21,137 nucleotides of DNA, from positions 1 to 21,137 of the IMG/VR virus record IMGVR_UViG_3300032296_000297. One strand, 5' to 3'. Positions 1,299 through 15,854 of this stretch are shown here, piece by piece. Source of the DNA: a virus. The position numbers and the translations under genes were made by a program. The notes beneath the pieces are model-generated. The model saw only the letters and a program-made list of their open reading frames with translations, was not told where the DNA came from and did no database searches. The number at the start of each line of letters is the position of its first letter. The first letter of the stretch is position 1.

Positions 1299-2006
1299 CT
1301 AAAATCTAAAAGATGATAAGTACTTCATTTGTTCAGGTGTTAACCCAGATTGTTGCATTTGAGGATTTGACTCAACTGTTCCTCTATTCTGCGTTAACCC
1401 ACCTAATTGAGAAGCTGTTCCTGCTGTCATAGCAGCAGCTTTATTTTGCTGATACAATGGAACTGCTTCACCTGCATATCCTACTGCTGATCCTAATCCT
1501 TGAACTGCACCACTAATACCTGCATATATATTTTCTTGAGCCTGAGCCGCTGCTCCTTGAGCACCTTGCAATTGAGCATAAGTAAATTCTCTTTCGCCTA
1601 AAGTATTACGCATATTAGCTCCTTGCTGTGCTTCAGCTTTAGCCATCGCAAGTCCCATCTGTGCTTCGTTAGCCTGAGATGCCAATTGAAGCTGCTGCTC
1701 AGAACCTACTTGCATCATTCCAGGAAGCGCACCGATAACTGCCTCTGCCCCTGCTCCTTGTACAGACTGTACGCCTGACATCATTGCACGATCTGCTGAT
1801 TGCTGTGCTAGTTCAAAACCTAGAGTAGGCATTTCAATATCTTTGAATGCGTTCTCTTCCTTAATATTTTTCATTCGATTAGCCGCAGCTGTTGCTGCTG
1901 ATTGAGCTTTTTTCTTATCTTTATTAGCTTGTACCGCTTGATTGACGCTTAGTCCAACACCAGCTAAGGCTACCCCTGCTGATATTACTGCTGTTGCTGC
2001 TGCCAT
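1299..2006 (-). CDS. Small Ala/Gln-rich internal virion protein (T7 gp14-like type)
   Basis: This 235-aa protein has a short hydrophobic N-terminus (AVISAGVALAGVGLSV, residues 6-21) that could insert in a membrane. A basic stretch follows (NKDKKKAQ), then a long Ala/Gln/Met-rich helical region (residues about 65-175) and a flexible Gln/Thr/Asn-rich tail ending SGLTPEQMKYLSSFRF. The composition and the place between tail genes and a larger internal protein resemble small core/ejection proteins such as T7 gp14, which help carry DNA across the cell envelope. Similarity is in character rather than in a diagnostic motif. The ATG at 2006 lies inside the end of the oxygenase gene (22-nt overlap), which suggests coupled translation. 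It could instead be a scaffold-like or tail-associated helical protein. Confidence 0.65.
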   Translation of the reverse strand: MAAATAVISAGVALAGVGLSVNQAVQANKDKKKAQSAATAAANRMKNIKEENAFKDIEMPTLGFELAQQSADRAMMSGVQSVQGAGAEAVIGALPGMMQVGSEQQLQLASQANEAQMGLAMAKAEAQQGANMRNTLGEREFTYAQLQGAQGAAAQAQENIYAGISGAVQGLGSAVGYAGEAVPLYQQNKAAAMTAGTASQLGGLTQNRGTVESNPQMQQSGLTPEQMKYLSSFRF

Positions 2007-2488
2007 TTCTTTCTGTTTAAAAATAAAACCTGAATAAGTCTAGACGACTTACCAACCCCAAAGTTACTGAAAATATTTCGACTGTGTAACAGCTCTGAAT
2101 CAAAAATGATCATCCTATTGAAATCAGAGAAAAACCTAACCTTCAGGCTTTTGTCATCGTTGTATACCGTAGTTCCATCATTGGGAATATTTTCACTGCT
2201 TAAGTACAGTATCGCAGTCAGGTCACCCATCATCTCATCGCTATGTATGAAGTTAGGTTCTAGCTGTCCTTCAGGTGATATACGCACAAAGTTATGTGCT
2301 ACCTCGTACTCGTTACGAAGGAACCAAAGAAGCCTCTTCTGTACCTCGTCATCTAGGCGTGGCTGTATTCCTTTGAATACACCTACCTCTGTATCTACAT
2401 CGTAGAACTCTTTACTGAATATGTCTTCAAGATGCTTCTCTGGGTTATCCAAGAAATCATCTATTACATTGAACTGTCTTAGCTTCAT
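1985..2488 (-). CDS. 2OG-Fe(II) oxygenase, prolyl 4-hydroxylase-like
   Basis: The protein fits the small double-stranded beta-helix dioxygenases that use Fe(II), O2 and 2-oxoglutarate to hydroxylate side chains. The facial triad is visible: HSD at residues 82-84 (His82, Asp84) and a distal His135 in FDSELLHSR. Arg150 in KSSRLIQVLFL is placed to bind 2-oxoglutarate. I chose the ATG at 2488 because it forms an ATGA overlap with the stop of the upstream acetyltransferase gene and gives a natural MKLRQFNVIDDFL start (167 aa). The longer frame from 2539 would add 17 residues that only read through the upstream gene. The final QQQQQ is a by-product of overlapping the Ala-rich start of the next gene. 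Candidate substrates are Pro residues of phage tail proteins, but a host target is also possible. The fold assignment is firm; the substrate is unknown. Confidence 0.8.
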   Translation of the reverse strand: MKLRQFNVIDDFLDNPEKHLEDIFSKEFYDVDTEVGVFKGIQPRLDDEVQKRLLWFLRNEYEVAHNFVRISPEGQLEPNFIHSDEMMGDLTAILYLSSENIPNDGTTVYNDDKSLKVRFFSDFNRMIIFDSELLHSRNIFSNFGVGKSSRLIQVLFLNRKKWQQQQQ

Positions 2489-2892
2489 AGTAACTTTATC
2501 ATCTCTTGGCATCCGCTGCTGCCTAACTGATATCCACATGCTTCATACCTATCTATCAGAGGCTTGCTCTTAAGCGATGTGTATGCAAACTTATATCCTT
2601 TGTCCTTTGCTATGTCTGTAAGCGTATATATAAGAGTATCTAACGCAATTACTCTACTGTCTCTATCCTTGAACTCTGGATTAGATACGATGTACTCGAT
2701 CCACACGGTCTTAGAGTTAGTGAAGTATATAAACCCAGCACATACATCAACCTTATCTATAGATACAATTAAACCTCCAGCCCCATCTTGTGGGAGCATA
2801 TCCTTAGCAGGAGGTGTCCACCTCCAACCTTTCCACCATCCAACTAGTATATTGTCGTAGTCTTCTGGCTGTAAGAATCTAATGTCTATCAT
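2485..2892 (-). CDS. GNAT-family N-acetyltransferase
   Basis: This 135-aa protein has the layout of a minimal GNAT domain. An N-terminal strand-helix (IRFLQPEDYDNIL) is followed by WWKGWRWTPP, then central strands (GGLIVSID, VCAGFIYFTNSKTVWIEYIVS, with the acetyl-CoA-binding region expected just after IEYIVSNPEF). A long helix (residues about 79-98) follows, and the C-terminal RYEACGYQ is the usual GNAT closing motif. The canonical Q/R-x-x-G-x-G/A pyrophosphate loop is degenerate here (NPEFKDRDSR), so activity should not be assumed. Closely similar proteins with the WWKxWRW segment occur, as I recall, near tail genes of environmental phages. It overlaps the preceding and following genes by 4 nt (ATGA) on both sides, which ties it to a tail gene and to the oxygenase. 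Its substrate is unknown. Confidence 0.75.
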   Translation of the reverse strand: MIDIRFLQPEDYDNILVGWWKGWRWTPPAKDMLPQDGAGGLIVSIDKVDVCAGFIYFTNSKTVWIEYIVSNPEFKDRDSRVIALDTLIYTLTDIAKDKGYKFAYTSLKSKPLIDRYEACGYQLGSSGCQEMIKLL

Positions 2893-3677
2893 GGGAAACT
2901 CTTAAACGCTGATGTCTCTACATCGAATAGTTCAACCTCTCCAAATGAGTTATTTATAAGTTGAACCTCCATGTAATATCCACGAATACCGTAAGACTCA
3001 GCTACGTTATTCTTAACTATAAATATCATATCCCCAACCGCAGGTGGTGGTGGTGAAGTAGATGGGTCAGGTATGTAATCCATTGCGTCTCCTGAGAAAG
3101 AAGATATATAACCTAAGTAAGTCATTGTATTACTTAAGGTATTAAACTTATATACTCTATCTCCAACACTTACATTTGAAGGTATATTGAATGGAAAGAA
3201 TATTGTAGGGCCAGCAGGATTTACAAAGTTTGTTCTTCCAATGCCTTGCGTAGATATTGAGTTAGGATCTATTATTGATACAGAGTTGTTACGTATGTAT
3301 GCAAACCATCCTCCTTCTTTTAAATCGTAGTAGCTCTCAAGAACAGATGCGTACCCAAGGTCTGTAGTTATGTTAGCCTCCCAAGTATCTGTAGATTCAA
3401 GAGCTATAGTCTTGAACATCTTATTTGTTGTAGGATCTTGGTTAAATATAGTTGTTATTGTAGAGTTGTAGTGATAGTACTGATTACCTGGAAGATCGAA
3501 GTTACGATAAAAATCATTCCTATACAAAGCAGCTGATGAGTCATGCTCATAAAGATTACCATTCTTCCACGTATAAAAAGTGCTGTTTAATCCCAACATC
3601 CAGTCTGGGTAAAAGCTCCAGAATGAAGTCCATCCCTTAGATCGTGGTGAATATGTTACTGTAATCTCTCCTGCCAT
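2889..3677 (-). CDS. Tail protein resembling the detached C-terminal part of a crAss-like stabilisation/muzzle protein
   Basis: This 262-aa protein opens with ITVTYSPRSKGWTSFWSF and continues PDWMLGLNSTFYTWKNG NLYEHDS (residues about 24-47). I associate the KGWTSF...FYTxKNGxLYxH signature with the C-terminal portion of crAss-like stabilisation proteins, where it normally sits in the same chain as the NKDLDERL N-terminus. Here those parts are separate genes, with the fibre and glycosyltransferase genes between them. The rest is beta-rich. A proline run, PDPSTSPPPPAVGD, lies at residues 204-216. The start at 3677 follows two TAnnTTTG motifs, and the stop overlaps the acetyltransferase start by 4 nt. 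A tail or muzzle role is likely; the exact structural position is not known. Confidence 0.65.
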   Translation of the reverse strand: MAGEITVTYSPRSKGWTSFWSFYPDWMLGLNSTFYTWKNGNLYEHDSSAALYRNDFYRNFDLPGNQYYHYNSTITTIFNQDPTTNKMFKTIALESTDTWEANITTDLGYASVLESYYDLKEGGWFAYIRNNSVSIIDPNSISTQGIGRTNFVNPAGPTIFFPFNIPSNVSVGDRVYKFNTLSNTMTYLGYISSFSGDAMDYIPDPSTSPPPPAVGDMIFIVKNNVAESYGIRGYYMEVQLINNSFGEVELFDVETSAFKSFP

Positions 3678-3695
3678 ACAGCAAAGATAGCAAAT

Positions 3696-4610
3696 TTAGA
3701 CCAAACAGCTACTTACAGACTTCATAAAGTTGTAGTAGTTGTAAGAACACCTGCTGTCACTTATGTCTAAGTCAACGTTAAAAGGGTAGCTATCTATGTA
3801 GTCAGCTTTAAAGAACATACCCTGATTTGCGTCTGGCACTCCTGCGTTATGGAAGAACGACAGTTCGTACCACCTCTCTATTGAACATGTAGCCCAGCAG
3901 AAGTCAAACTCTTTAGGCACAACAACCTGATGACCTAGCTTCCATCCTACCCACAGCTCTGCCCACATGGACGCAGTCCACACCTGTATACCGTATGGAT
4001 CACCTTCTTGTTTTAGATGACTAACTGAGTTAAGGTACTTATAAAGTTCGTTAGATGTCTTGTATACTTGTCGCCAGTAGTCTCCATCTATATTCTTCAT
4101 AAGCTTCTGAGCACCACCACTGTTAGCTTGGTTTGCTTCAACTATAAATCTATCTATATCTACAACAGCACACATGCCTTCAAGTATCTCGTGACTCTTA
4201 CTCTTAATGTAGTCAGCACCTATGTAGCTCACAGTATCACTGAAGTACCACCTGTCGTCTTGTAAGAATGGTGTGAAGTCGAAGTACTTAGTAAATAAGA
4301 AGTCGCAGTCGTGGAAGAATATAGCGTCATCCTTTAAGTACGGATGCTCGTCAAAGTGCTTCGCTAGTATATACGCCTGAACAGATGGAGGATAAAAGTC
4401 CTCCTCCCTATCGTCCTCGTAGAAGAAGAACCTTACGTATGGAAACTTAGCCTGCACCTTGCGCCATGACTCAGGTATATCACCGTAGTATCCTGCAACC
4501 ACATCGATATAGTTGCCGTTGTACCCCAACTCTAAGAAGTTGTGAAGGTATACCTCAACCTGCCACGCATAGTAATCGTTAGCAGGTTGAGCTGATAATA
4601 GTCTTAGCAT
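3696..4610 (-). CDS. GT-A-type glycosyltransferase (hydroxyproline O-arabinosyltransferase-like character)
   Basis: This 304-aa protein would transfer a sugar from a nucleotide-sugar donor to an acceptor. The metal/donor-binding DxD motif is DCD at residues 101-103, at the end of a hydrophobic strand (AIFFHDCDFLF) as GT-A folds require. Further conserved-looking blocks are NSGGAQ (163-168), DPYGIQVWTASMWAELW (204-220) and FFHNAGV (252-258). The ATG at 4610 overlaps the fibre stop by 7 nt and gives a natural MLRLLSAQPAN start. The frame extends 36 codons further upstream (to 4718), but only through the fibre gene in another frame, so I reject that. The overall pattern recalls Hyp-O-arabinosyltransferase-like proteins found in environmental phages. 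The enzyme class is well supported; sugar and acceptor are unknown. Its position next to the Thr-rich fibre makes that protein the first candidate acceptor. Confidence 0.75.
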   Translation of the reverse strand: MLRLLSAQPANDYYAWQVEVYLHNFLELGYNGNYIDVVAGYYGDIPESWRKVQAKFPYVRFFFYEDDREEDFYPPSVQAYILAKHFDEHPYLKDDAIFFHDCDFLFTKYFDFTPFLQDDRWYFSDTVSYIGADYIKSKSHEILEGMCAVVDIDRFIVEANQANSGGAQKLMKNIDGDYWRQVYKTSNELYKYLNSVSHLKQEGDPYGIQVWTASMWAELWVGWKLGHQVVVPKEFDFCWATCSIERWYELSFFHNAGVPDANQGMFFKADYIDSYPFNVDLDISDSRCSYNYYNFMKSVSSCLV

Positions 4611-7480
4611 ATAATTGAATTTCCAGTCCAATCGTTTCCGTCCCACTCGTAGGCTACTGACCCAGTAACTAACATGTACCAAGCTGCTGGAACTAGTACG
4701 TATATAGAACCAGTCCACTCGTACAGCTTGTTACCTATCGTACCTAACGGCCCGTCTGCGTAACGCTGTATGATAATACCGCTACATACATTCTCCTCTG
4801 TTTCCTTCCTTACAAATACAGCAGTAAGTGGAGGAAGTGATGTTGTTGTAGTAGTTGATGTAGATGTTGTTGACGTACTTGTAGTCGTAGTAGTTGACGT
4901 GGTTGTTGTGGTTGTAGTAATCCCTGTACAGTCAGAACACTTCTCGTATGTGAAAAGTATATAGGCTAACGGAGTAGTTGGCATCTTTGTGTTAGCTAGT
5001 TTATAACAGTTACCATCGTCAGCCTTAACAATTGTGTCGTTAGGTAAAACTGAAAATGATATCTGTGCTAACGTAACTATTGCCCCACCTGAACATAGCC
5101 TAGCGTCGTAGTACTGAGTAGGTATAGTCGTTGTAGTCGTAGTAGTCGTAACTCCTGCGCATGCTATAACATTCAATACCTGTCCTGTTGACGCAATTTG
5201 TATAGAATAATCTGCACCATCGTAGAAATAGTACCAGCTTGATCCACCATTAAAAGGTGAAGCTCCTAACGAGTCAGAGTAAACAAAGTTTCCTACAACT
5301 GGGTATGCGCCTCCTCCGTTATGATACAGCGTAAGGTTAAGCGGAAGATTGTTCATACATGCATTAAAGCTGCTAGCGTATGGATCGCTTGTGATCATAA
5401 ACGAAGTAAGCACTGGCGCTGTAGTCGTTGTAGTAGTCGTCGTTGTAGTCGTAATACCTAGACAAGATGTACAGTCTACGAATGGACCTTCTGTGTGATC
5501 TATTATTATATAAGGATAAGATGGAGTAGTTGTGTTAACTATCTCCCAACAGTTTCCATCTATAGTCTTAACGATATCTCCAACTATAAACCCAGTAGAA
5601 GTTGTATCAACTAATATACCTATAACTAATCCGTCAGGACAAAGCGTAGCTTCGAACCAATCTCCTGTAGGAAGGGTAGTCGTTGTAGTCGTTGTGGTTG
5701 TTGATGTAGTTGTAGTAGTAACAGTAGGACATTCGTTCTTGTCGCACACGTTACCAGTCTCACATACCTTAATAGAGTATGTTGAGTGGTCTATCTTGTA
5801 CCATACACCTCCACCCATGAACTTCTCTTGGGCCTTGTAGTCAATGTAAATTGTATCATTTACTGTAGGTACTCTTCCGTTACCGTTGTGGTAAAGAAGT
5901 GTATACACTGGGTCTACAACGCAAGCTGCGTCACCAGTGTCACCTATGTTCTCAACGTCAATAGCGAAAGGTGTTAGTCTTATGCCTGTGTCAACATTGA
6001 TAGATAAATTACTTTGTAAACTAATGCCTACACAATTACCTGCCTCTACAATTATATCGTATTTACATGCTTCATTAGCTGTGCCTGACAGAATTCCTGA
6101 TGTTACATCAAACGAAAGACCTTCAGGAAGTAGGTAAGACTGACATGCATTAGTTTCTGTAGATGTACCATCACCACTAATCAGATTCATAGTTCCAGTC
6201 TGCCCACAAACTGTAGTGTTTCCATTTATGTTTAACGTCACATTCACAGTGTTTCCATCACAGTCTGTATACTGGAATAATGAACCTCTAGTGCCTCCAG
6301 TTAATTCAAAAGTTGCACAGTTAGATATTAGTTTCCAAGACGTAGGGTTATTTGTTGCTGCAAATGATATGTTTACTGCGTTACCCTGAGTTATGTATAT
6401 ATCGTCTTGGAAGATAAAAGGAACGGTGTACTCTAAGCAGTCACATCCACCAGACGAAGTGACAACTCCTTCAGTACTAACACCTACATAAACACCACCT
6501 GATGATGGCGAAACCATAAGTGGTGTGGTGCTCATTAAGTGAAGAGCATTATTACCATTATAAACTGTTGATCCTGCTGCCTCACTGTAGATAGTGTTGT
6601 TATTATCTGGAAGCGCATTAATGCCATCGTGCCAGTACTGCGTTGCAGGAACTTGTGTACATACGTTAGATACATCTCCGTCTGTAGGATCTAGATAAAA
6701 AGTTGTAAGTGATGGATTAACCTTAGTAAGTGTCCATGAAGAAGATACCAATGGAGAGTATGCGTACACGTACCCTTTATCTATAGCTGAAGAGAACTTA
6801 CTGAAGTCCATACTTCCAACACCATTATCAACCAATCCATCGTATGGTGATACGAGTTTAATGTCATCTGGGTCAATACCTAATGCAATAAGCGCATTGT
6901 AGTTTGCAGATGAGTTAAGACCTACGTACCCAGTGTCTGCAACTACAGCATTATTGTAAGCCAATATAAACCTAGTTGGAGCACCAGTAATATTATACTG
7001 AACAGAAGCTCTTCCTACATCAAATCCAAAATCAGACTCTATATATCTAGTCGTTTGATCCCCTACATAAGATACTACGCCTCCAGTCATAGTGTCTGTA
7101 TAGTCCCATATAAGGTATAAGTTTTCGAAGTTGTTTGGGTTGCTAAACACAAACGTTCCCTCATACCTACCTCCAACTAAAGTTACAGGTACTTGTGTAG
7201 CTAACGAAATAATAATATCTCTGTCCTTGTCAGTGTAATTCTCATTAGTAACTAGGTAGTATACTTTGTTATTTAATGTAGGCTGTAGATCCCTAACTTC
7301 TGTACTAGTTCCAATGATACCAGTCTTAACAGTTACTGTAGACCCATTATATGGCATGTAGTCTATACCTCCAATACCAGTAGCCACATCGAAAAGAGCT
7401 ACCTGATTTTCATTAAGTACTACATTATCAAATTCATAATTTAAACTACCTGTATAACTAAATCCTTGATCTGTTCTCAT
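4604..7480 (-). CDS. Modular tail fibre / receptor-binding protein with Thr-only linkers
   Basis: This 958-aa protein has a beta-rich N-terminal region (about 1-330) and a Cys-containing middle with an Ig-like motif LLPEGLSFDVTSGILSGT (about 447-464), similar to the He_PIG type. A C-terminal string of modules follows, joined by Thr/Ser tracts. Module B occurs twice (about 500-583 and 688-776), sharing LYHNGxG, a GG-x-WY core, YSI and a closing Cys. Module A occurs twice (about 606-676 and 788-854), sharing DGNC(W/Y) and a closing (D/K)C-x-x-C-x-G. A last Trp/Tyr-rich module (882-958) ends YEWDGNDWTGNSIIC. Its place directly after the muzzle-like gene (3-nt gap) and its modularity suggest host-surface binding. 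The N-terminus presumably attaches to the tail, but I see no known attachment motif. Confidence 0.7.
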   Translation of the reverse strand: MRTDQGFSYTGSLNYEFDNVVLNENQVALFDVATGIGGIDYMPYNGSTVTVKTGIIGTSTEVRDLQPTLNNKVYYLVTNENYTDKDRDIIISLATQVPVTLVGGRYEGTFVFSNPNNFENLYLIWDYTDTMTGGVVSYVGDQTTRYIESDFGFDVGRASVQYNITGAPTRFILAYNNAVVADTGYVGLNSSANYNALIALGIDPDDIKLVSPYDGLVDNGVGSMDFSKFSSAIDKGYVYAYSPLVSSSWTLTKVNPSLTTFYLDPTDGDVSNVCTQVPATQYWHDGINALPDNNNTIYSEAAGSTVYNGNNALHLMSTTPLMVSPSSGGVYVGVSTEGVVTSSGGCDCLEYTVPFIFQDDIYITQGNAVNISFAATNNPTSWKLISNCATFELTGGTRGSLFQYTDCDGNTVNVTLNINGNTTVCGQTGTMNLISGDGTSTETNACQSYLLPEGLSFDVTSGILSGTANEACKYDIIVEAGNCVGISLQSNLSINVDTGIRLTPFAIDVENIGDTGDAACVVDPVYTLLYHNGNGRVPTVNDTIYIDYKAQEKFMGGGVWYKIDHSTYSIKVCETGNVCDKNECPTVTTTTTSTTTTTTTTTLPTGDWFEATLCPDGLVIGILVDTTSTGFIVGDIVKTIDGNCWEIVNTTTPSYPYIIIDHTEGPFVDCTSCLGITTTTTTTTTTTAPVLTSFMITSDPYASSFNACMNNLPLNLTLYHNGGGAYPVVGNFVYSDSLGASPFNGGSSWYYFYDGADYSIQIASTGQVLNVIACAGVTTTTTTTTIPTQYYDARLCSGGAIVTLAQISFSVLPNDTIVKADDGNCYKLANTKMPTTPLAYILFTYEKCSDCTGITTTTTTTSTTTTTSTSTTSTSTTTTTSLPPLTAVFVRKETEENVCSGIIIQRYADGPLGTIGNKLYEWTGSIYVLVPAAWYMLVTGSVAYEWDGNDWTGNSIIC
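4838..4918 (-). repeat. Thr/Ser linker 4 of the fibre (27 codons)
   Basis: Residues 855-881 are 19 Thr or more broken by scattered Ser, bounded by CTGI before and LPP after. On the plus strand it reads as imperfect GTN/TGA triplets. All changes are in frame, and Thr codons are mixed rather than one repeated unit. It joins the second Cys module to the terminal Trp/Tyr-rich module and is the longest of the four tracts. Confidence 0.95.
5126..5149 (-). repeat. Thr linker 3 of the fibre (8 codons)
   Basis: Residues 778-785 are eight consecutive Thr, preceded by CAGV and followed by IPT. The codons are mixed ACA/ACG/ACT. It separates the second LYHNG module from the second DGNC module. Confidence 0.95.
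5420..5452 (-). repeat. Thr linker 2 of the fibre (11 codons)
   Basis: Residues 677-687 are eleven consecutive Thr, preceded by CLGI and followed by APV. ACG, ACA and ACT alternate irregularly. It separates the first DGNC module from the second LYHNG module. Confidence 0.95.
5675..5719 (-). repeat. Thr/Ser linker 1 of the fibre (15 codons)
   Basis: Residues 588-602 are Thr with one Ser, preceded by ECPTV and followed by LPTG. It separates the first LYHNG module from the first DGNC module. All four Thr codons appear. Confidence 0.95.
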
Positions 7481-7483
7481 TTC

Positions 7484-10400
7484 TTATTTAAATTTTCCTG
7501 GAACTGGTTTAATAGGATTATTAATAACAACGCTTATTACGTTTCCAACTTTACCAACTCCTTGCGTAAGTATAAACTCAAGAGTCTTGCCTCCACAGTA
7601 TGTAACCACAAATTTAACACTTCTATTTGAACCTGTGTTGTTTACACTTATAATTGAAGTGATAGGAGTAGTTCCAAATCCAAACGTCTGGTAGTTAGAA
7701 ACCCAGTTAGTACCTGATCCTAAGCTAACTACAGATATAGTCCAAGAAACATCTCCTATGATTGTGAACAGAGAGTTAGCAAGGTTAGATGTATTAGATG
7801 GTACATTTTTAGAATACCTATTAAGCCTAACGTTACAGTTAAGAATTGTTGTATCGTTATTAGCTAACACATAAGCTTGGTTATGAGGATCGTAACATCC
7901 TAACTTCTGTGTGTTAGGGTAGTCACGCATAAGCTCTATAAAGTAGTCCTGCATACCAGTGTTAGATATCTCATCCATCTGGTTGCCATAAAGACCCATA
8001 ACAACACCTCTCCTTACATCTGTGAAGTATATATCTGTACCCCACACTGCAAATGATTCAGGGTTTAAGCTGATACCATACTCACCAGGGAATGCAATCT
8101 GTGTACCTAATACCTCTGGCACAGAGACTACTGAACCCCCACCAACTGAGTCAGATAGCAAGTTCTTTCCGTAAAGAACTGAACTTACTTTATTCTCTTG
8201 GAATACTAACAAGTCAGTATCTCTTGCGTGAAGCTTCTGAATAGATCCAAACTCGCTATCTAGGTACTTGAAGTTTGCTTTAGATAAGTTAAACTCATTA
8301 AGTGCGTTAAAGTCAGTATTCTCACCATACACACCACTATAGGATATAGCGTTTCTACTTACCTTCTGCTGATACTCATCAATAATAGTAGTAACCCTTG
8401 GGCTGTACTGTAAAGTAGCAGCAGCGTAGTCATCACGTATCCTAAACGTCTCTAGCGCATTAGTATAACTCCATGCGTTAAAGTCAGAGTTTACTGTACT
8501 ATTAGGATTGTTTATTTTAATAACCGCACCACTATTTGTAGATGTCTGATCTTGCTCAATTAAATCATATGCAACTGATCCAGGGCTTAATGGTCCTGCT
8601 ACAAAACCTAAATCGATAACAATGTTGTACGGATTTGGAACAAAAAGTATTTCGTACATACCTGAGAACCAACCACCATCTATATATACAGTCTCTCCTG
8701 CAACATAGTTATGCATCTCATCTGTAGATGTTGGAGTTGCGGATGGGTTTACTTGACCTAAGTTTGTTTTACCTGCATGTGGACCAGTTGATACAAAAGT
8801 TGAGTCCTTATATTTCCAACGAACCCTATGCTTACCATTCTCTATCTTGAATGTTCTTGATAATTCATGAAACACATCTATATCTACATCTTTAGGTGTT
8901 GTCTCAGCTATAATCTGATTGCTTATTCTTCTGATAGTCATATTACCAGTAAGAACATTAGCTTGCGGAGGATTTCCAACACCTGCATCATTATGTCCAT
9001 AACCCATTATTATCATAAATACAGGTCTACTTAACTGGTTATTTATTCCTTGCGAAAAAAGATCAGCTGGTTGTATTTGACTAAATGATGGAGCACTTGT
9101 TCCACTGGATTCCAATGTTGGACCATTTCCTCTTCTAAATGATACAGCTTGTTTATCTTTAGAATTACCATTTATATCTATAGCTTGAAAATTTAAATAT
9201 TCACCACTTTCAACAAACCACTCTTCTATATTTTCATATGTAGCTGGACTTGGCGGAAATACTTGTAGAGTTGTGTATGCTGAAGGATTATATAAATCTT
9301 GAGTTACTTCTATAGAAATAATATCACCTTCATTTATTGTTTGTAGATTAGCATTACTCTCACCTAATACAAGATATCCACCTACGTTATTAGACCATAG
9401 AACATTTGATGAACTATTAGAAGCAGATGGCCCTAATATACCCTTTCCTCCAAAATAATTATCAATAAAAAATCCTTCTTGAGACCTAACATTTATTTTC
9501 CATATATCACCAACGGTAGGAGTATAATTCCATTTTATCTGACATAAAGGAATACCTCCATTATATAGTATTTGATTTAAAAGAGTTATATTCAATACTG
9601 TACCTCCTGCCCCAGTTAAATCTGTACTATATCTAAATTGGTTATTTCCTATAGCCTCTACAGTTATTCTGTAATCCTTATCAACTACACCTGCTACGGG
9701 AGGGATATTGTTATTAGTTACAGACAATGCTCCTGACGATCCATTACCATAATGAATAGGATTTTCAATATATTCATATATATTCAACGGGTTAACAGGA
9801 TATGGTATTACTCCAGGATTGCTAGAACCTGGGCCTCCAAATACATTTGCACTTGCGTTGTCTGTTCCTGTGGAAGTAAAATATGCAGTAGTTATACCAG
9901 TAAGTAAATCTAATTCATTTGGTGAGTCTACCTTTATTTTAATATAAAGACCAGGAAAAGCTCCTGTAACAAAACCAGATGCTTTATCTTTTATCTCAAG
10001 TATTTTATATTTCTTGTTGAAAAATGTTGGTCCAGCTGGAGTTGATTTAAAAATCAAATAATCTCCAGTACTTACTTTTTCTCTATCTGATTCGTTAATC
10101 ATAAAGTACCTATAACTGCCACTAACCCTAGCGTCAATAGGAAATATGTTATAGTACTGATCTCTAGATTGTTTAATTATAACTCTATAGTTTGTAGCCC
10201 AAGAAGGAGGGTTATTACTAATCCTAAGCTTTAAACTATTCCCTTTGTCTGACTGAGTTGGAGGTATGTATGTAGTGTTTCCTTGAGATGTAAGCGCAGT
10301 AGTAGACCTACCATACTTATCCAAGTAAATAAGTCCAAGCTCGTAGTCTCTATCTGATCTAAATGTCTGAGTAGGCGTATTGCCTGATCCGTCAATAGAA

Positions 10401-11497
10401 ACATACTTAACATCTAATTTTACAGGAAAGTCTATATCGTAGAACTGTGTGTAGTTACCGTACATAATACGGTTACCAACATAGTCCTGTGCTTTTGCAA
10501 GTAATGGTACATTATCAAAAAGCCTTGTCACTTGACCTTCAGGAAGAAGTGTGTAAGTCTTATTATTATTAAATGTAAAACTATAAAATACATCATTAGA
10601 TAAAGCAAGTTCTTGTTTATCTATTGTCTCAACAATTAAACAGTTTATACTTCTTGCGTCGCGCATTATGACTTGAACTTCTTTAACAAATTGATTTCCA
10701 GTAAATACTGTAATTCCAACTTCGTTAAATCTATTCACCATAGATTTATTGTTACCAGCCCTAAAATCTAACTGATAGTCTTTAGGCCTGAATGCAACTG
10801 CTGAGAAAGGTGACAACGCACTGTATTGATCATCAACGTACTTATACCTATAAGAGAAGTATAAGAACTTCTCCTCCATGTTGTTGGACTGAGTACTTGT
10901 ATTATTAACTAATGATATCTTTGGTGCGTTTAATGGTGGAGCTAGAATAACATTTATATCCTCATCAATACGAGGGTCATCTATAGAGTACCCAGAAGTA
11001 CCAAGTGAGTTACTCTTTACACGAGCGATATTAATACGTCTAGGTGGATTAAGATTGTCAGTCCAGTAAAGGAATCCATCGATAAAGTTAACACCTGTAA
11101 TAAGGTATTCCTTATTGAAGTTAAGCTTGCTTACGGTTGATGGTGTAAGCTTGTTAGACTGCAATACACGTACAGTTGTACCTATTGTCGTGTCGTACTC
11201 ATATATCCCATCAAACTTATCTGAAGTAACGAACCAGTAAATAAATCCATCTCTCTCGTTAGCTACAGCACCAATCGTCTTAGCGTCAGCAGCTAAAGGA
11301 TAAGGAAATCCAGCAACGTTCCAAACATTAGAAACTAAAAGGTTACCCTTCTTGTTCTTTACAGCACCGATATTACCACCGTCAGCAGTGTCTATATCAA
11401 CGTTAAGTGCATCACGGTACACACCATCAGGTACAAGCCTCTCATCGAGGTCTTTGTTCATTATACCTGCTAGAAAACTATTCTTTAATTCTGGCAT
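7484..11497 (-). CDS. crAss-like stabilisation / muzzle-type tail protein with C-terminal BACON-like domain
   Basis: This 1337-aa protein begins MPELKNSFLAGIMNKDLDER, the typical N-terminus of the crAss-like 'stabilisation' family (named after P22 gp10 similarity). Structural work on a crAss-like phage describes a large muzzle protein that closes the tail, and I infer this is its counterpart. The N-terminal half reads as a beta-propeller-like fold (repeats such as RDGFIYWFVTSD and FIDGFLYWTDNLNPPR). The middle is beta-rich and Gly/Asn-rich, and residues about 1040-1200 contain LLVFQENKVSSVLYGKN and GCYDPHNQAYVLAN. Where I would expect the KGWTSF segment there is instead a BACON-like domain (about 1250-1312). 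The gene follows the 300-aa ring-type gene and precedes the fibre with 2-3 nt gaps. Confidence 0.75.
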   Translation of the reverse strand: MPELKNSFLAGIMNKDLDERLVPDGVYRDALNVDIDTADGGNIGAVKNKKGNLLVSNVWNVAGFPYPLAADAKTIGAVANERDGFIYWFVTSDKFDGIYEYDTTIGTTVRVLQSNKLTPSTVSKLNFNKEYLITGVNFIDGFLYWTDNLNPPRRINIARVKSNSLGTSGYSIDDPRIDEDINVILAPPLNAPKISLVNNTSTQSNNMEEKFLYFSYRYKYVDDQYSALSPFSAVAFRPKDYQLDFRAGNNKSMVNRFNEVGITVFTGNQFVKEVQVIMRDARSINCLIVETIDKQELALSNDVFYSFTFNNNKTYTLLPEGQVTRLFDNVPLLAKAQDYVGNRIMYGNYTQFYDIDFPVKLDVKYVSIDGSGNTPTQTFRSDRDYELGLIYLDKYGRSTTALTSQGNTTYIPPTQSDKGNSLKLRISNNPPSWATNYRVIIKQSRDQYYNIFPIDARVSGSYRYFMINESDREKVSTGDYLIFKSTPAGPTFFNKKYKILEIKDKASGFVTGAFPGLYIKIKVDSPNELDLLTGITTAYFTSTGTDNASANVFGGPGSSNPGVIPYPVNPLNIYEYIENPIHYGNGSSGALSVTNNNIPPVAGVVDKDYRITVEAIGNNQFRYSTDLTGAGGTVLNITLLNQILYNGGIPLCQIKWNYTPTVGDIWKINVRSQEGFFIDNYFGGKGILGPSASNSSSNVLWSNNVGGYLVLGESNANLQTINEGDIISIEVTQDLYNPSAYTTLQVFPPSPATYENIEEWFVESGEYLNFQAIDINGNSKDKQAVSFRRGNGPTLESSGTSAPSFSQIQPADLFSQGINNQLSRPVFMIIMGYGHNDAGVGNPPQANVLTGNMTIRRISNQIIAETTPKDVDIDVFHELSRTFKIENGKHRVRWKYKDSTFVSTGPHAGKTNLGQVNPSATPTSTDEMHNYVAGETVYIDGGWFSGMYEILFVPNPYNIVIDLGFVAGPLSPGSVAYDLIEQDQTSTNSGAVIKINNPNSTVNSDFNAWSYTNALETFRIRDDYAAATLQYSPRVTTIIDEYQQKVSRNAISYSGVYGENTDFNALNEFNLSKANFKYLDSEFGSIQKLHARDTDLLVFQENKVSSVLYGKNLLSDSVGGGSVVSVPEVLGTQIAFPGEYGISLNPESFAVWGTDIYFTDVRRGVVMGLYGNQMDEISNTGMQDYFIELMRDYPNTQKLGCYDPHNQAYVLANNDTTILNCNVRLNRYSKNVPSNTSNLANSLFTIIGDVSWTISVVSLGSGTNWVSNYQTFGFGTTPITSIISVNNTGSNRSVKFVVTYCGGKTLEFILTQGVGKVGNVISVVINNPIKPVPGKFK

Positions 11498-11499
11498 TT

Positions 11500-12402
11500 T
11501 TACTTAAGTTGTTGTGCTCTACCTCTCATTGTCATAATGAGTCTAGATGGGTGAAGGTTGCTTAGTCGAAGTTTAGCGTTCCTAAACTCAGCCTGCTTCT
11601 CATCACGAGCCATCTTACGCTCATACATAGGGATGCCATACTTAGCGTTAAGTAGACACCACTTTATATATCTGTAAACGAATTCCTCTGCAAACTTATG
11701 TACGTTAACTTCTGCGTCGTTACCGTTCGCCATACCGTCAGATATGTACTCAAGAACGATACGATGTCCTGAGACACCTGAAGAGAAGTCGATAACTCCG
11801 TTATTCACCCTGAAAGATGGGCCTGCATGTAATCTAGATGGATCAACTAACCACTTAGCGCCTACCTCGTAACCGAAGTACCATGATCCATCAACACACC
11901 AACCATAGCATCCGTTGTACATGCCTGGACCATCGTACAACTTAGCCTCAAGTCTATCAATATCAAGCTGTGAGTCACCTATAAGTATCTCTCCGTTCTG
12001 ATCGAAAAGGATATTATAGTTGTTGTCCTGAAGGTAACCCTTCGCAGTGTTTACCTGCTTGTTCTCATACAGCGGACGTAGTACGCCATTAACAAGTATA
12101 GATATACGAACGTAGTTAACGTAGTCTGAAGGAAGGATAAACTTAAGGTTGTCACCTACCTCCATCTCAATACTCTTAATAGACCTAAGAGCATCGAAGT
12201 TCAGCTGCTTAATTGCTTGCTTTGCATGAAACAATACCTCGTAACGTTTCACGTTACTAATCAGCTTATCATTTCCGACATACATCAACATGAAGTTGTT
12301 GACTATATCAGCAAGTGTAGTGTACTGGTAAGAACCCCAGTTCTGATCCTCTGGGATGTTACCGTTATTTGTGTAGTACTGATATGGTGTTATGTATGCC
12401 AT
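11500..12402 (-). CDS. Neck/tail ring-type structural protein (300 aa)
   Basis: The protein has an N-terminal helical region (LADIVNNFMLMYVGNDKLI) followed by YEVLFHAKQAIKQLNFDALR, SIEMEVGDNLKFILPSDYVN and YVRISILVNGVLRPLYENKQ. It ends in a basic helical tail (RKMARDEKQAEFRNAKLRLS). The alternation of helix bundle and beta insert fits head-tail connector or tail-tube ring proteins, annotated in crAss-like genomes as tail tubular or ring proteins. It is 3 nt after the 240-aa gene and 2 nt before the muzzle-like gene, which places it in the neck-to-tail stack. Which ring it forms cannot be told from sequence alone. Confidence 0.65.
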   Translation of the reverse strand: MAYITPYQYYTNNGNIPEDQNWGSYQYTTLADIVNNFMLMYVGNDKLISNVKRYEVLFHAKQAIKQLNFDALRSIKSIEMEVGDNLKFILPSDYVNYVRISILVNGVLRPLYENKQVNTAKGYLQDNNYNILFDQNGEILIGDSQLDIDRLEAKLYDGPGMYNGCYGWCVDGSWYFGYEVGAKWLVDPSRLHAGPSFRVNNGVIDFSSGVSGHRIVLEYISDGMANGNDAEVNVHKFAEEFVYRYIKWCLLNAKYGIPMYERKMARDEKQAEFRNAKLRLSNLHPSRLIMTMRGRAQQLK

Positions 12403-12405
12403 CTA

Positions 12406-13128
12406 TTAAATCTTTTGTGCGTTTTGTCCTTCCTCTGCTTTCGCTGCGCTTGTTATCTCAGTCTCACGGATAGATAGACCTGCGTACTGAAGTATCTTGA
12501 TAACTAAGTCTGTCTCATAGCTAAGAGGCAACTCAAAGTCTTGGTAGTCAAGCTGAGTCGGATCAAATATTGGTGTACCAGAAATGATAGTGTTATAAGT
12601 CCACTTAGGGTCTCTTGGATACCTAACATACTGAGCTGTAACAAGACCTGTCTGAGCGATGCTGTCTGGATACACAGTGATAGTTGAGTTTAGAGTAGAA
12701 GTCAAAGTTCCTTCTTGTGTATATGCTGGATAAGAAACCGTAGGTGTTGTCAGATTAGAGCTTAGTAGGTTATATATCTTATTGTATGGAACCTTCTCAA
12801 TCTCTACTGTACCATTGTAAATAACAGTGTTCAGTACATAAGCATCGTCAGGAACGTTATACTTCCCAGTAATACCATTATAAGTTAATATGTCATAATC
12901 AGAAAACGTATCAATAGCCTCCTCTATCTGTTTAGGAATATCAGTATATCCACTGTTATGCATGTGAGCGTTCTGCTTGTTAACAGAGTTGCTGTACGTG
13001 TAGAACATACCCTCGAAGATCTCAAGCTGCGCCTGCTTCGCAAACAAGTTAAACTCAAATGGGGTTATATATCCACGGTTATCCTTACTGATGATAGATA
13101 ACACTGTGCTTCTTACGCTGTCAATCAT
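12406..13128 (-). CDS. Neck/tail ring-type structural protein (240 aa)
   Basis: The protein starts MIDSVRSTVLSIISKDNRGY, with TPFEFNLFAKQAQLEIFEGM next, a helical opening typical of crAss-like and environmental phage connector proteins. A beta-rich central part (IVYNGTVEIEKVPYN-like strands, AQYVRYPRDPKWTYN) follows, and an Ala/Glu-rich helical end (ETDLVIKILQYAGLSIRETE). It is the first gene after the third terminator, so it heads the tail transcription unit. TATATTTG lies only 4 nt before its ATG. A ring or adaptor role between portal and muzzle is inferred from position and fold character. Confidence 0.65.
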   Translation of the reverse strand: MIDSVRSTVLSIISKDNRGYITPFEFNLFAKQAQLEIFEGMFYTYSNSVNKQNAHMHNSGYTDIPKQIEEAIDTFSDYDILTYNGITGKYNVPDDAYVLNTVIYNGTVEIEKVPYNKIYNLLSSNLTTPTVSYPAYTQEGTLTSTLNSTITVYPDSIAQTGLVTAQYVRYPRDPKWTYNTIISGTPIFDPTQLDYQDFELPLSYETDLVIKILQYAGLSIRETEITSAAKAEEGQNAQKI

Positions 13129-13132
13129 AGTG

Positions 13133-13140
13133 CAAATATA
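13133..13140 (-). promoter_or_regulatory. TATATTTG, candidate Bacteroidota-type -7 element before the 240-aa gene
   Basis: It matches the TAnnTTTG -7 consensus of Bacteroidota promoters and sits between the terminator and the gene. Only 4 nt separate it from the ATG, so a transcript would be leaderless or start inside the gene. I see no TTG -33 element at the usual distance. Confidence 0.3.
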
Positions 13141-13142
13141 AT

Positions 13143-13169
13143 AAAAAAGGCACTAATAAATAGTGCCTT
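13143..13169 (-). terminator. Intrinsic terminator after the 96-aa gene
   Basis: On the minus strand AAGGCACT pairs with AGTGCCTT over a 7-nt loop, an 8-bp perfect stem, followed by a run of six T (two of them within the stem). It lies between the 96-aa gene stop and the tail operon, so it should end transcription from the head side. Confidence 0.85.
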
Positions 13170-13206
13170 CTTTATGTGTCAATTACAAAGTGTTAATTAC
13201 AACAAA

Positions 13207-13497
13207 CTATGCAGGAAGAGCATTACTAATTTCAGTAAATTCTAAATTTATAGAAACTGTTACTGGAGCAACATTCGTCCAAGATGTTTGAAGTGCTGCT
13301 TTGATTGCATCTTGAATAGCATTCATTACAATGTATGATGAATCAGCCTCGTGTGTAAGCACGACAGTACCTCCATTAACATAATAAATAACTGTTTGAG
13401 TAGCACCTATGCCATCTTCATAAATAAACATAACATTTGTTGCAGAAACCATTTGATTTCCATGTACAGCAACTGGGATATAGATAAACTTTTCCAT
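13207..13497 (-). CDS. Small conserved phage protein of unknown function (96 aa)
   Basis: I start at the ATG at 13497 (MEKFIYIPVAVHGNQM). The frame extends to an ATG at 13530, but those 11 residues fall against a terminator and a TAnnTTTG motif and look untranslated. The product appears to be a compact alpha/beta domain: strands VSATNVMFIYED, TQTVIYYVNGGTVVLTHE, a helix YIVMNAIQDAIKAALQT and a last strand PVTVSINLEF. It has no signal peptide or membrane segment. It stands alone between two intrinsic terminators, just after the head genes, so an abundant head accessory or decoration protein is possible. I do not recognise a named family. Confidence 0.7.
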   Translation of the reverse strand: MEKFIYIPVAVHGNQMVSATNVMFIYEDGIGATQTVIYYVNGGTVVLTHEADSSYIVMNAIQDAIKAALQTSWTNVAPVTVSINLEFTEISNALPA

Positions 13498-13527
13498 TTT
13501 GTAAAAAATTAATGGGTTAATAAAGTA

Positions 13528-13535
13528 CAAAGATA
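13528..13535 (-). promoter_or_regulatory. TATCTTTG, candidate -7 element before the 96-aa gene
   Basis: It matches TAnnTTTG directly downstream of a terminator and would give a leader of roughly 20-25 nt before the ATG at 13497. No -33 element is evident. Confidence 0.35.
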
Positions 13536-13538
13536 AGT

Positions 13539-13571
13539 AAAAAAAGGCAGACGCTTAGCGACTACCTTTTT
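13539..13571 (-). terminator. Intrinsic terminator after the 254-aa gene
   Basis: On the minus strand AAAAAGGTAG pairs with CTGCCTTTTT (one G-U pair). An inner CGC/GCG closes the loop, and T residues follow. The G-U pair becomes a C-A mismatch on the plus strand, so the structure is oriented for minus-strand transcripts. Confidence 0.8.
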
Positions 13572-13608
13572 CTTTACCTAAACAACTATGTGAATACTTT
13601 ATGCTGTG

Positions 13609-13616
13609 CAAATATA
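13609..13616 (-). promoter_or_regulatory. TATATTTG motif just past the 254-aa gene stop
   Basis: This is a second copy of TATATTTGCAC, which also precedes the 240-aa gene. It lies about 38 nt before the terminator at 13571. If active it would make only a short RNA unless the terminator is read through. Confidence 0.25.
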
Positions 13617-14381
13617 TTAATTTTCAGAGAACTCTTTCTCTAAAAACTTATAAAATTCAATTCCTTCGTTAGATTTTAACCAAGTCATGAACACATCTTC
13701 TTTTCGTTCACCAAAAGGAACTGTAAGAATCTTCTTCTTGTTGTTACTTAAGTTATAGTGTATATCCTTTCCAGCCCTAAATGTGATGTACCCTTCTTTA
13801 AATGCTCTTGACGAAAAGTCATTTACACTAATATCTGGATCATCAATAGCATCTAAGAAGTCCTGTGGATAGTTTTTAGCAAATAATAAGATATCGTGCT
13901 TAATCTCAGATGATGTCATGTTATCTGAATTTAATCCTAAATGTATGCGAGCAATTGCTTTCATAACTTCTAGATCTAGACCTCTTGCAGCAATTAATGC
14001 ATCAACCTCAAGATTCAAATCTTTAACTCTATCCTCGGCTATCTTCTGTGGATCAAATTCATAGAATAATGTACCTCCATTGGCAATATTATCAGGATGA
14101 ATATCCATAAAATTTTGAAGTAATGGATTTTTTTTAGGTACAGTAATTTTACCATCCTCCATTACAATTGGCTCAAGTATAGCAGTTCCATCCTGCTCAT
14201 CCTCAAAAATTGATCGTTGATTTTTTGAATAACGAAGTGCTCGGTTAATCCCTTTTTCTTCGTCAAAGTGAAGCAACTGTCGTCGCTTATTGCTTCTTGA
14301 TTGAATAAAGAAGCTTACTGGTGTCTTTGATTGTTTAAGGATATATATCTTATCCTTAGAGGTTCTCTCTTGTGTTTTCAT
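13617..14381 (-). CDS. Conserved phage virion-region protein of unknown function (254 aa)
   Basis: The protein has a basic N-terminus (residues 1-35) and then RALRYSKNQRSIFEDEQDGT followed by AILEPIVMEDGKITVPKKNP. A helical middle follows (EVDALIAARGLDLEVMKAIARIHLGL) and IKHDILLFAKNYPQDFLDAI. The C-terminal part is FKEGYITFRAGKDIHYNLSN and VPFGERKEDVFMTWLKSNEG. I recognise this pattern as a protein widespread next to capsid genes of crAss-like and some larger tailed phages, without a settled function. It is flanked by two strong terminators, so it appears to be transcribed as its own unit or by read-through from the capsid gene. No catalytic motif is visible; a head-completion or DNA-associated structural role is possible. 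Confidence 0.65.
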   Translation of the reverse strand: MKTQERTSKDKIYILKQSKTPVSFFIQSRSNKRRQLLHFDEEKGINRALRYSKNQRSIFEDEQDGTAILEPIVMEDGKITVPKKNPLLQNFMDIHPDNIANGGTLFYEFDPQKIAEDRVKDLNLEVDALIAARGLDLEVMKAIARIHLGLNSDNMTSSEIKHDILLFAKNYPQDFLDAIDDPDISVNDFSSRAFKEGYITFRAGKDIHYNLSNNKKKILTVPFGERKEDVFMTWLKSNEGIEFYKFLEKEFSEN

Positions 14382-14405
14382 TATACTTAATTTAAATTTA
14401 AAAAT

Positions 14406-14440
14406 AAAAAAAAAGAGAGGGAGTATCTCATCCCTCTCTT
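14406..14440 (-). terminator. Strong intrinsic terminator after the major capsid gene
   Basis: On the minus strand AAGAGAGGGA pairs perfectly with TCCCTCTCTT (10 bp) over an 8-nt loop, followed by nine T. It starts about 8 nt after the capsid stop and is the clearest terminator in the window. Confidence 0.93.
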
Positions 14441-14447
14441 AAGTGTA

Positions 14448-15854
14448 TTAGTCTTTGAACAATACGAAGTTGTTTGCTCCAAGAGTACAAAGTGCACGCT
14501 CAGACAAGAAGTTTACTTGCATTGCATCCAAGTCGCTAGTAGCAGCTCCACCAGCAGAACCTGTAACCCAAGTTTTCATCTTACGGTTCTCAGCTTCACT
14601 TGCACGGTAACGAACGTGTAGGAATGGTCTCTTAGCGTTTTTACCTAATACTTGGTCATATACTGACATAGTACCAGCAGGGATAAGAACACCATTTACA
14701 GCACCACCTACGATACCTCCACGAAGAGCAGCATCGTTCAAGTACTTCCAGTCAGACTTGTAGAAGTCATAACCACGACGGAAAGAAGTGAATCCTAAGT
14801 TAAGAGCCATATCTTTATCGTTGTCAAATAGACCGTAAGAAGTACCACCAACTCCGTAAGAGTTTTGTGCAGCTAACATATCGTCGATGTCGAAAGAGAA
14901 CTCACGGTTAACGAACAATACGTTCTCAGCGATAGCACCTTGCTTGTCAAGACGAGAAACGATATCATCGAATTCACCTAATGTTCCTGGATTACCTCCT
15001 GACCATACGTTGCCACGAGTTTCGATAGCATCGAATAAACCTTGAGATCCAGAATTAGTTCCCAAGTCAGATCCAGCAACACCAGAAGAACCTTCAGTTG
15101 GTACATGCTCGATCATCATCATTTCAAGGTAATCTTCGAAACGTAGACGAGTCTCATGCTCAGCCTTAACATACCAAAGGTATCCTGTAGCACCATTCTC
15201 AGTAGTTACTTCAACCCATCCGATTTGAGCCATATCTGATCCAGATACTTCAAACTTATCTTTAATGATAACAGGCTTAACCTCAAAGATATCATCTACT
15301 GGGTCAAGTGATCCCTCCATTCCAAAAGATCCTTTTTGAAATTCAGAACCATACACAAATGCAGTAATACCAGTAGAAGCAGCAAATCCAGTTGGTTGAC
15401 CAGCATTTAAATAATACTTAACAGTAAACTCACCTGCACCACCAACACCAACAGTATCAATATATGCCTTAGCAGATACGTTTAATGTGTTGTCAGATAA
15501 GAATACAGTCTGTCCTACTCGGAAGTTACAAGATCCACCACCTACAACAAATGTTGTACTTGGATCTCCATCAGTTCCTGCATCAACTGTAACATCAGTA
15601 TACTTAGTATGTAGACGACCTTGTTCTGCCCACTTGATCAAGTCAGATGCAGAAGGAATTTCTGCACTTACGTTACGCAAGAAAGAAGCGATTGAACGGT
15701 TACCGTAACGCTCGAATTCAGCTTCGTAAGTGTCAGGAAGATATTGATTCAAGAAATTGAAATCAGAACTTCCTAAATAATTAGTAGGTAAAGTAGTCTT
15801 TACCGAGCTAGGGGTTAAACTTACCCCTGGTGTTGTTAATAATGAACCAGCCAT
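14448..15854 (-). CDS. Major capsid protein (crAss-like, HK97-fold type)
   Basis: This 468-aa protein follows the scaffold gene and is closed by the strongest terminator, as expected for the most abundant virion protein. It begins MAGSLLTTPGVSLTPSSVKT and continues YLPDTYEAEFERYGNRSIAS, a start I associate with crAss-like and environmental phage capsid proteins. Later landmarks are FEVSGSDMAQIGWVEVTTEN, RLRFEDYLEMMMIEHVPTEG and a C-terminal block RPFLHVRYRASEAENRKMKT. An HK97-type fold is expected for the family. The residues do not include an obvious N-terminal cleaved delta-domain, consistent with a separate scaffold gene 12 nt upstream. Family assignment is by recognition, not by alignment. 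Confidence 0.85.
   Translation of the reverse strand: MAGSLLTTPGVSLTPSSVKTTLPTNYLGSSDFNFLNQYLPDTYEAEFERYGNRSIASFLRNVSAEIPSASDLIKWAEQGRLHTKYTDVTVDAGTDGDPSTTFVVGGGSCNFRVGQTVFLSDNTLNVSAKAYIDTVGVGGAGEFTVKYYLNAGQPTGFAASTGITAFVYGSEFQKGSFGMEGSLDPVDDIFEVKPVIIKDKFEVSGSDMAQIGWVEVTTENGATGYLWYVKAEHETRLRFEDYLEMMMIEHVPTEGSSGVAGSDLGTNSGSQGLFDAIETRGNVWSGGNPGTLGEFDDIVSRLDKQGAIAENVLFVNREFSFDIDDMLAAQNSYGVGGTSYGLFDNDKDMALNLGFTSFRRGYDFYKSDWKYLNDAALRGGIVGGAVNGVLIPAGTMSVYDQVLGKNAKRPFLHVRYRASEAENRKMKTWVTGSAGGAATSDLDAMQVNFLSERALCTLGANNFVLFKD

Follow-up and report, generated by a model that had tools for sequence, protein, structure and literature searches.

Reading a linear virus record of 21,137 bases (IMGVR_UViG_3300032296_000297, here G000; the whole stretch is referred to as the window), whose principal genes lie on the minus strand, we found a gene for a fibre-like protein with four threonine/serine (Thr/Ser) tracts that overlaps the gene of a predicted glycosyltransferase (GT). 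We consider it very likely that this GT O-glycosylates the poly-Thr tracts of the adjacent fibre, and that the same enzyme family does so on virion proteins of other phages. This prediction from sequence and structure models draws on the family of the GT, its fold, its pairing with Thr tracts, their conservation and the matched absence of both partners, all of which were computed here. In the proposed mechanism a protein O-glycosyltransferase of GT-A fold would draw a nucleotide sugar from the host and attach the sugar to Thr (and Ser) residues of the poly-Thr tracts in the fibre encoded next door. The outcome would be densely glycosylated, mucin-like linkers between small fibre domains. In many other phages members of the same family would act on poly-Thr tags of capsid, tail-tube and other proteins. 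We infer the catalytic activity, the sugar, its O-linkage and the timing of its transfer; shielding, stiffness or binding may be the benefit.

Relatives of the GT are nearly always encoded close to a Thr tract. We collected 153 GT open reading frames (ORFs; at least 220 aa, E 1e-20), none of them chosen for tracts, from 154 loci (L002-L153, L321 and L330; L152 gave no usable ORF). A Thr tract is located on the same strand within 4 kb for 151 of the 153. Because several contigs occur twice among the loci, the count is also given for clusters at 90% identity, where it is 73 of 75. For 145 of the 153 ORFs the tract is found between about 400 nt before and 120 nt after the start of the GT. When considering the 28 relatives found with a single sequence, the Thr-tract gene lies just upstream of the GT in 27, the exception being L029. 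An overlapping set of 85 viral loci (L025-L029 and L038-L117, with L025 and L114 on one contig) showed a similar distribution: 81 carry the tract gene immediately upstream of the GT, in L110-L112 it is two or three genes upstream, and L029 has none. These viral loci come from a sample leaning to the clade of the window, for which the best 80 of about 309 GT relatives in 2.9 million contigs were used. The genome collection contributed 36 loci, 34 belonging to records named as Firmicutes; in 35 of the 36, the exception being L153, a tract lies on the strand of the GT no more than 4 kb away. As a separate observation, the tract-less GT relative at L153 (metagenome-assembled genome of Arachidicoccus, 6122-14800) lies near a gene for a small Cys- and Ser-rich peptide and also near a gene that by eye resembles an ABC transporter with a peptidase part; the group may be a cluster for a modified peptide.

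For comparison we counted how often a tract lies just upstream of other ORFs of the same loci. At the viral loci this was the case for 76 of 80 GT ORFs compared with 10 of 836 other ORFs, and at the genome-collection loci for 35 of 38 compared with 65 of 786. The control count is raised because other genes of the same operon are also tagged, as seen in the loci printed. A Fisher test was carried out on the counts for GT and other ORFs; its rows are not independent, and its 161 GT ORFs include 8 ORFs from nine GT loci that had been chosen for their tracts. None of these nine loci is among the 153 ORFs of the pairing count.

The nine loci stem from the reverse analysis, in which viral contigs were scanned for nine Thr codons in a row. 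This gave at least 120 stretches, of which 80 were used; 23 of these had no tract in an ORF. In the remaining 57 loci the GT was present nine times, two of them on contigs already known. Compared with about 309 relatives in 2.9 million contigs the enrichment of the GT at tract-chosen loci is large, with figures that depend on the sensitivity of the scan. Neighboring proteins were tested in a few loci: L254 has a family-4-type glycosyltransferase beside the tract and L206 one of PF11397, and in L195, L231, L246 and L265 the neighbors tested are not glycosyltransferases by Pfam. We also noticed poly-Thr tails on at least two proteins in L195, L205, L231 and L254, in stretches that do not include this GT.

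The proteins carrying the tracts belong to unrelated families, comprising the head families phrog_10, phrog_840, phrog_247 and phrog_909 as well as the tail families phrog_88, phrog_117 and phrog_6686. In phages of Firmicutes the tag usually consists of about 6 to 20 Thr/Ser residues at the C-terminus of the major capsid and tail tube proteins, and sometimes a third, small protein is tagged too. L121, for example, has tags on the capsid, a small protein and the tail tube, and L149 and L144 have them on capsid and tail tube. The acceptor in the clade of the window is a crAss-like fibre with internal tracts, and in a Chryseobacterium phage and at locus L025 still other Thr-tract proteins lie next to the GT. 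In five of the eight cultured phages first read (phiFL1A, 9183, TPWB06, bIL285 and RQ1) the GT is located among annotated head or tail genes.

In some phages the tag is found beyond a stop codon. Judged by sequence alone, TPWB06 and RQ1 have it behind the stop of the tail-tube gene in another frame; L118 and L131 have it, likewise in another frame, behind the stop of a gene that is presumably the capsid gene by size and position. When the capsid frame of bIL285 is continued past its in-frame TAA (L035, 7970-8015), it gives a TTTTTTRHD tail that resembles the end of the phage's own tail-tube protein. Because these tags sit behind stops, frameshifting or read-through is suggested, and programmed frameshifting may tag only some of the subunits. 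The loci noticed for such out-of-frame poly-Thr tails upstream of the GT, behind a tail-tube or presumed capsid gene, are L118, L131, L034 and L036. Ig-like domains can be joined to the capsid and tail proteins of phages through frameshifting. The tags resemble them in being C-terminal surface extensions of capsid and tail-tube proteins, some beyond a stop and in another frame; they differ in being of low complexity and accompanied by a dedicated enzyme rather than forming a folded domain.

Where the GT is missing from related phages the tracts are generally missing as well. Six crAss-like relatives without the GT, taken from 87 records with a match to the muzzle protein, have no tract in the stretches read, and neither a GT nor a Thr6 codon pattern was found in their whole records. 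In a set of 18 whole phage records all four with the GT have Thr6 codon runs and 13 of the 14 without it have none. Close comparisons were possible in the genus Coetzeevirus: R3.3 has the GT as well as tagged capsid and tail-tube proteins, whereas Bassarid, phiJL-1 and ATCC8014 lack the GT, and their untagged capsid and tail-tube proteins are 67-78% identical to those of R3.3. The records with related tail-tube proteins numbered 62 and 194 as listed, and the 10 read were hand-picked for variety. In Bassarid we noticed, by eye, an unannotated Ig-like-looking frame after the capsid gene (L322, 3307-3630), in the position that the GT takes in R3.3. In addition we searched 80 genomes from the family to which one Metabacillus host belongs and compared the 30 loci obtained, stretches of about 3.5 kb surrounding related tail-tube genes. 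Both loci with the GT are tagged, and 27 of the 28 without it have no tract. One tail-tube protein from a GT-less locus (G078) ends in TETTTPEGA and is 80% identical to a tagged one; elsewhere in the same genome the GT and a tag are found together at a second locus.

The first-pass annotation of the window had described a fibre with four Thr/Ser-only tracts and a GT with a DxD motif that overlaps the fibre's stop by 7 nt. The fibre is present as described, and a six-frame scan (runs of at least 6 residues with at least 5 Thr) finds just these four tracts in the window. The GT and its overlap are also present when the start giving 304 aa is used: the listed ORF (3696-4718, beginning with GTG) is overlong, and homologues begin at the ATG used in Table 1. 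The GT matches phrog_4417, a family of unknown function, with E 3.4e-64 (residues 39-336 of the long ORF, profile positions 2-292 of 293). The window GT has no match in Pfam or NCBIfam at E up to 1. For 46 members no Pfam family was matched by more than two (best E 0.017), and for 5 further members NCBIfam gave no match above cut-off, with sub-cut-off matches resembling chance. A sequence search of the PDB with the single GT sequence gave no match, and a search with the GT profile gave five weak matches, four of them geminin.

A model of the GT from the alignment of 46 sequences reached a predicted local distance difference test score (pLDDT) of 96.8. Its nearest structural match is glycogenin (Z 14.9, root-mean-square deviation 3.5, 223 aligned), followed by LgtC (Z 14.6) and UGGT (Z 14.0); the top Foldseek match is UGGT with E 1.3e-7. 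The likeness to these enzymes, one of which, glycogenin, glucosylates a protein residue, extends over the whole-chain fold and the DxD motif, in contrast to a sequence identity of only about 8-12% and the missing family matches. D101 and D103 of the DxD motif (HDCD) are invariant in 46 of 46 aligned sequences, and a late, C-terminal His (H254) is found in at least 90% of them. Because of the structural matches, the invariant DxD and the conserved late His we regard the GT as a GT-A-fold protein near these enzymes, which we take to be of the families GT8 and GT24. In the Metabacillus GT (L121, 10001-11095) the C-terminal 55 aa or so match, with 50% identity, a small protein that is encoded on its own behind the tail-tube gene where the GT is missing (L162, 2112-2381; L165, 2098-2454) and carries the PHROG label Arc-like repressor. 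This GT therefore appears to be fused to a resident gene.

The fibre of the window gives a partial match to phrog_21885 and a weak He_PIG Ig match below cut-off. Its tracts are written in mixed codons. Of 69 distinct fibres, 30 show 11 Thr where the second tract is expected; among these 30 a mean of 6.7 of the 11 third codon positions differ in pairwise comparison. Since the 30 rows were chosen for an all-Thr second tract, this figure describes codon turnover under a constant residue and not the rate of Thr loss. Tract lengths are alike across the 60 fibres for which they were printed, and the longest tract varies in length between relatives. Because the pairing recurs across unrelated phages and third codon positions turn over in the fibres, we regard the association of GT and tract as going beyond chance.

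Several observations weigh against the proposed glycosylation of the tracts. The GT occurs without a tract nearby in L029 and L153. Phage 9183 has an untagged capsid protein before the GT, and its tail-tube protein shows no more than a short TTTSTT; in Iacchus the GT lies away from annotated head and tail genes, with a small, unannotated tract protein. Conversely, one site with the Thr6 pattern is found in the GT-less Bassarid outside the region read, and L163 (G062) has a T10 tail on a small protein beside an untagged tail tube, with no GT found in the genome. Of the 57 loci chosen for their tracts, 48 gave no member of this family in the short stretches read, so Thr tracts do exist without this GT nearby. 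The presence of the window fibre in the virion, finally, is judged from gene position, and the fibre is thus a proposed acceptor with a presumed virion role. The 48 loci and the varying length of the longest tract would also fit an explanation in which the tracts stay unmodified, as flexible linkers or slippage repeats, and the GT targets a different residue of the proteins carrying them. The shuffled codons within the tracts speak against it, as do the different families of the acceptors and the absence of the Thr6 pattern from 13 of the 14 GT-less records, and we give this explanation very little credence. Slippage repeats as the whole explanation are out, the codons being mixed and changing between relatives. 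It is just as improbable that the GT alters the host cell surface (receptor masking, serotype conversion) or the phage DNA and that its Thr-tract neighbor is incidental. DNA glucosylation and serotype conversion are indeed among the roles of phage GTs named in one source (PMC12619734). However, a poly-Thr tract is the common trait of otherwise unrelated neighbors, and the five cultured phages mentioned above have the GT among head or tail genes.

The first-pass annotation had gone further and proposed that the GT, a prolyl-hydroxylase-like oxygenase and a GNAT acetyltransferase jointly modify Thr- and Pro-rich tail proteins, by arabinosylation of hydroxyproline (Hyp) and acetylation. In the window and among its nearest relatives the genes concerned lie in one group and starts overlap, and the HxD...H...R residues of the oxygenase (H82, D84, H135, R150) are kept in 7 of 7 aligned sequences. 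The search (phmmer, E 1e-4) covered those 70 of the 85 viral loci in which the sequence continues for over 2.5 kb behind the GT; one contig counts twice among them. The two loci besides the window that have a PPPP run and enough downstream sequence both carry the oxygenase. A mix as imagined by the annotation, with members of other families, is seen in L206 (838-5668), where a stretch of 5 kb encodes a protein with a Thr tract together with a GlcNAc glycosyltransferase of PF11397 and a TauD dioxygenase. However, the oxygenase is present in only 6 of the 70 loci and the PPPP run is missing in 4 of these 6, for which reason the link between Pro run and oxygenase was rejected. The GNAT is present in 53 of the 70, and its homologue occurs in 5 of the 6 crAss-like relatives that have neither GT nor tracts. 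It is located directly behind the muzzle part in four of them and elsewhere on the other strand in Gundel_1; in phi38:1 no GNAT homologue was detected. Its presence in GT-less, tract-less relatives indicates that the GNAT belongs to the ordinary crAss-like cassette. No result obtained here connects the GT with prolyl hydroxylation or arabinosylation; Hyp arabinosyltransferases are not among the 50 structural matches listed for the GT model, which excludes nothing. On this co-occurrence we rejected the three-enzyme pathway, which we regard as highly unlikely. Thus oxygenase and GNAT occur independently of Thr- and Pro-rich fibres and the GT does not: from the idea of self-modification, an adjacent GT acting on a Thr-tract virion protein is retained, in line with the 151 of 153 pairings, the unrelated acceptors and the matched absence, and the joint action of three enzymes is dropped.

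The window itself can be assigned to the crAss-like phages (Crassvirales) because of its muzzle profiles, PHROG matches and gene order. PF25731 (crAss_MUZ) and PF25729 (muzzle C-terminal domain) match window proteins above cut-off, and further proteins match PHROG portal and virion-protein profiles. The gene order is common to the Cellulophaga phages phi38:1 and phi18:3, Flavobacterium phage elemoF, Maribacter phage Panino and the uncultured podovirus MW202828. In phi38:1, elemoF and phi18:3 the homologues of muzzle, ring, capsid and portal are ordered as in the window (the phi18:3 stretch begins behind the portal). The muzzle is split in the window (2889-11497), with its C-terminal domain forming a gene of its own and the fibre-GT pair in between. 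A single ORF matches both muzzle and C-terminal domain in phi38:1, elemoF and Gundel_1. The fibre and the GT may thus be regarded as a two-gene module between the muzzle gene and the gene of its C-terminal domain, with insertion as the probable direction of change. The position equivalent to the fibre-GT pair is taken in MW202828 by a short gene whose annotation reads putative glycosidase.

The protein with a PPPP run that had been reported to follow the GT is present and was identified as the muzzle C-terminal-domain protein; the run reads PSTSPPPP. Both the GNAT-like and the oxygenase ORF are ATGA-coupled to the preceding gene, as the first-pass annotation had stated. Its oxygenase label is supported by a match to DUF6445, presumably a 2-oxoglutarate (2OG)-type family (28.6 bits, cut-off 24), together with the HxD...H...R residues; PF13640 stays below cut-off (20.6, cut-off 27). 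A PDB sequence search with the oxygenase gave no match, and its structure model was discarded (pLDDT 52). The GNAT label is weaker: Acetyltransf_1 matches below cut-off (E 0.16; 12.7 bits, cut-off 20.7), and phrog_17252 has no assigned function. A plus-strand frame with a Val run (5532-5840) was rejected as a mere antisense mirror of a Thr tract.

Table 1. Position of the fibre-GT pair and neighboring genes in the window.
Feature	Position	Strand	Basis
Fibre-like protein, 958 aa, four Thr/Ser tracts between small domains	4604..7480	-	ORF; homologues with tracts in relatives
Thr/Ser tract 1, 15 residues, aa 588-602	5675..5719	-	
Thr tract 2, 11 residues, aa 677-687	5420..5452	-	
Thr tract 3, 8 residues, aa 778-785	5126..5149	-	
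Thr/Ser tract 4, 27 residues, aa 855-881	4838..4918	-	
GT-A-fold glycosyltransferase-like protein (GT), 304 aa, phrog_4417; 7 nt overlap with fibre stop	3696..4610	-	
Muzzle C-terminal-domain protein with PPPP run; outside the pair, marks the presumed insertion site	2889..3677	-	PF25729 above cut-off; same gene/domain in GT-less relatives
GNAT-like protein of the crAss-like cassette; no link to GT	2485..2892	-	phrog_17252; homologues in 5 of 6 GT-less relatives
2OG-Fe(II) oxygenase-like protein, 167 aa, patchy accessory gene; no link to GT	1985..2488 (from inner ATG)	-	DUF6445
Muzzle protein, upstream of the fibre-GT pair (context)	7484..11497	-	PF25731 crAss_MUZ

Decoration of virion proteins by phage GTs has been described for the mycobacteriophages Che8, Corndog and Myrna (PMC12619734 and PMC12363180), and the glycans are reported to sit on capsid and tail-tube subunits, at their C-termini (PMC12619734). 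The poly-Thr tags of the Firmicutes relatives are located at the C-termini of the same two kinds of proteins, and in both groups a phage-encoded GT goes with virion proteins, here by association. The present GT has no detectable homologue among the Che8 GTs gp108, gp109 and gp110 (hidden Markov model scores below zero; hhalign probability at most 0.2 on a scale of 0-100), and the C-termini of the Che8 capsid and tail-tube proteins carry no poly-Thr tag. The GT described here also differs from those of mycobacteriophages in usually adjoining the gene of its acceptor, which in the window is a fibre with internal tracts. In literature searches we found no paper linking a GT to phage poly-Thr tags, which is weak evidence as the coverage was without preprints and most subscription papers. 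Virion glycosylation is thus already known, and the enzyme family together with the poly-Thr tag is new.

We are inclined, with more reserve than for the GT and its neighboring tracts, towards a broader interpretation in which poly-Thr runs serve phages as a portable tag for glycosylation that consists of sequence only, accompanied by a dedicated GT family and resulting in a mucin-like sugar coat. The tag would be carried by whichever protein covers the virion (capsid, tail tube or fibre), perhaps sometimes only in a minority form made by frameshift or read-through, and it would span crAss-like phages, a Chryseobacterium phage, and prophages as well as lytic phages of many Firmicutes. If true, this would be a general surface layer of phages that is unrecognised in the literature searched. 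With the role proposed for the GT, a widespread phage protein family of unknown function obtains a likely function, and sequence alone would predict which virion proteins carry sugars, and where. In the literature found, virion glycosylation is described for mycobacteriophages and inferred by the authors for some other actinobacteriophages. It would now reach easily grown phages of lactic acid bacteria and Enterococcus as well as crAss-like phages known from metagenomes. With a short Thr tag and one enzyme, the purpose of self-glycosylation, be it antibody shielding, protease resistance, linker stiffness or receptor contact, would become testable.

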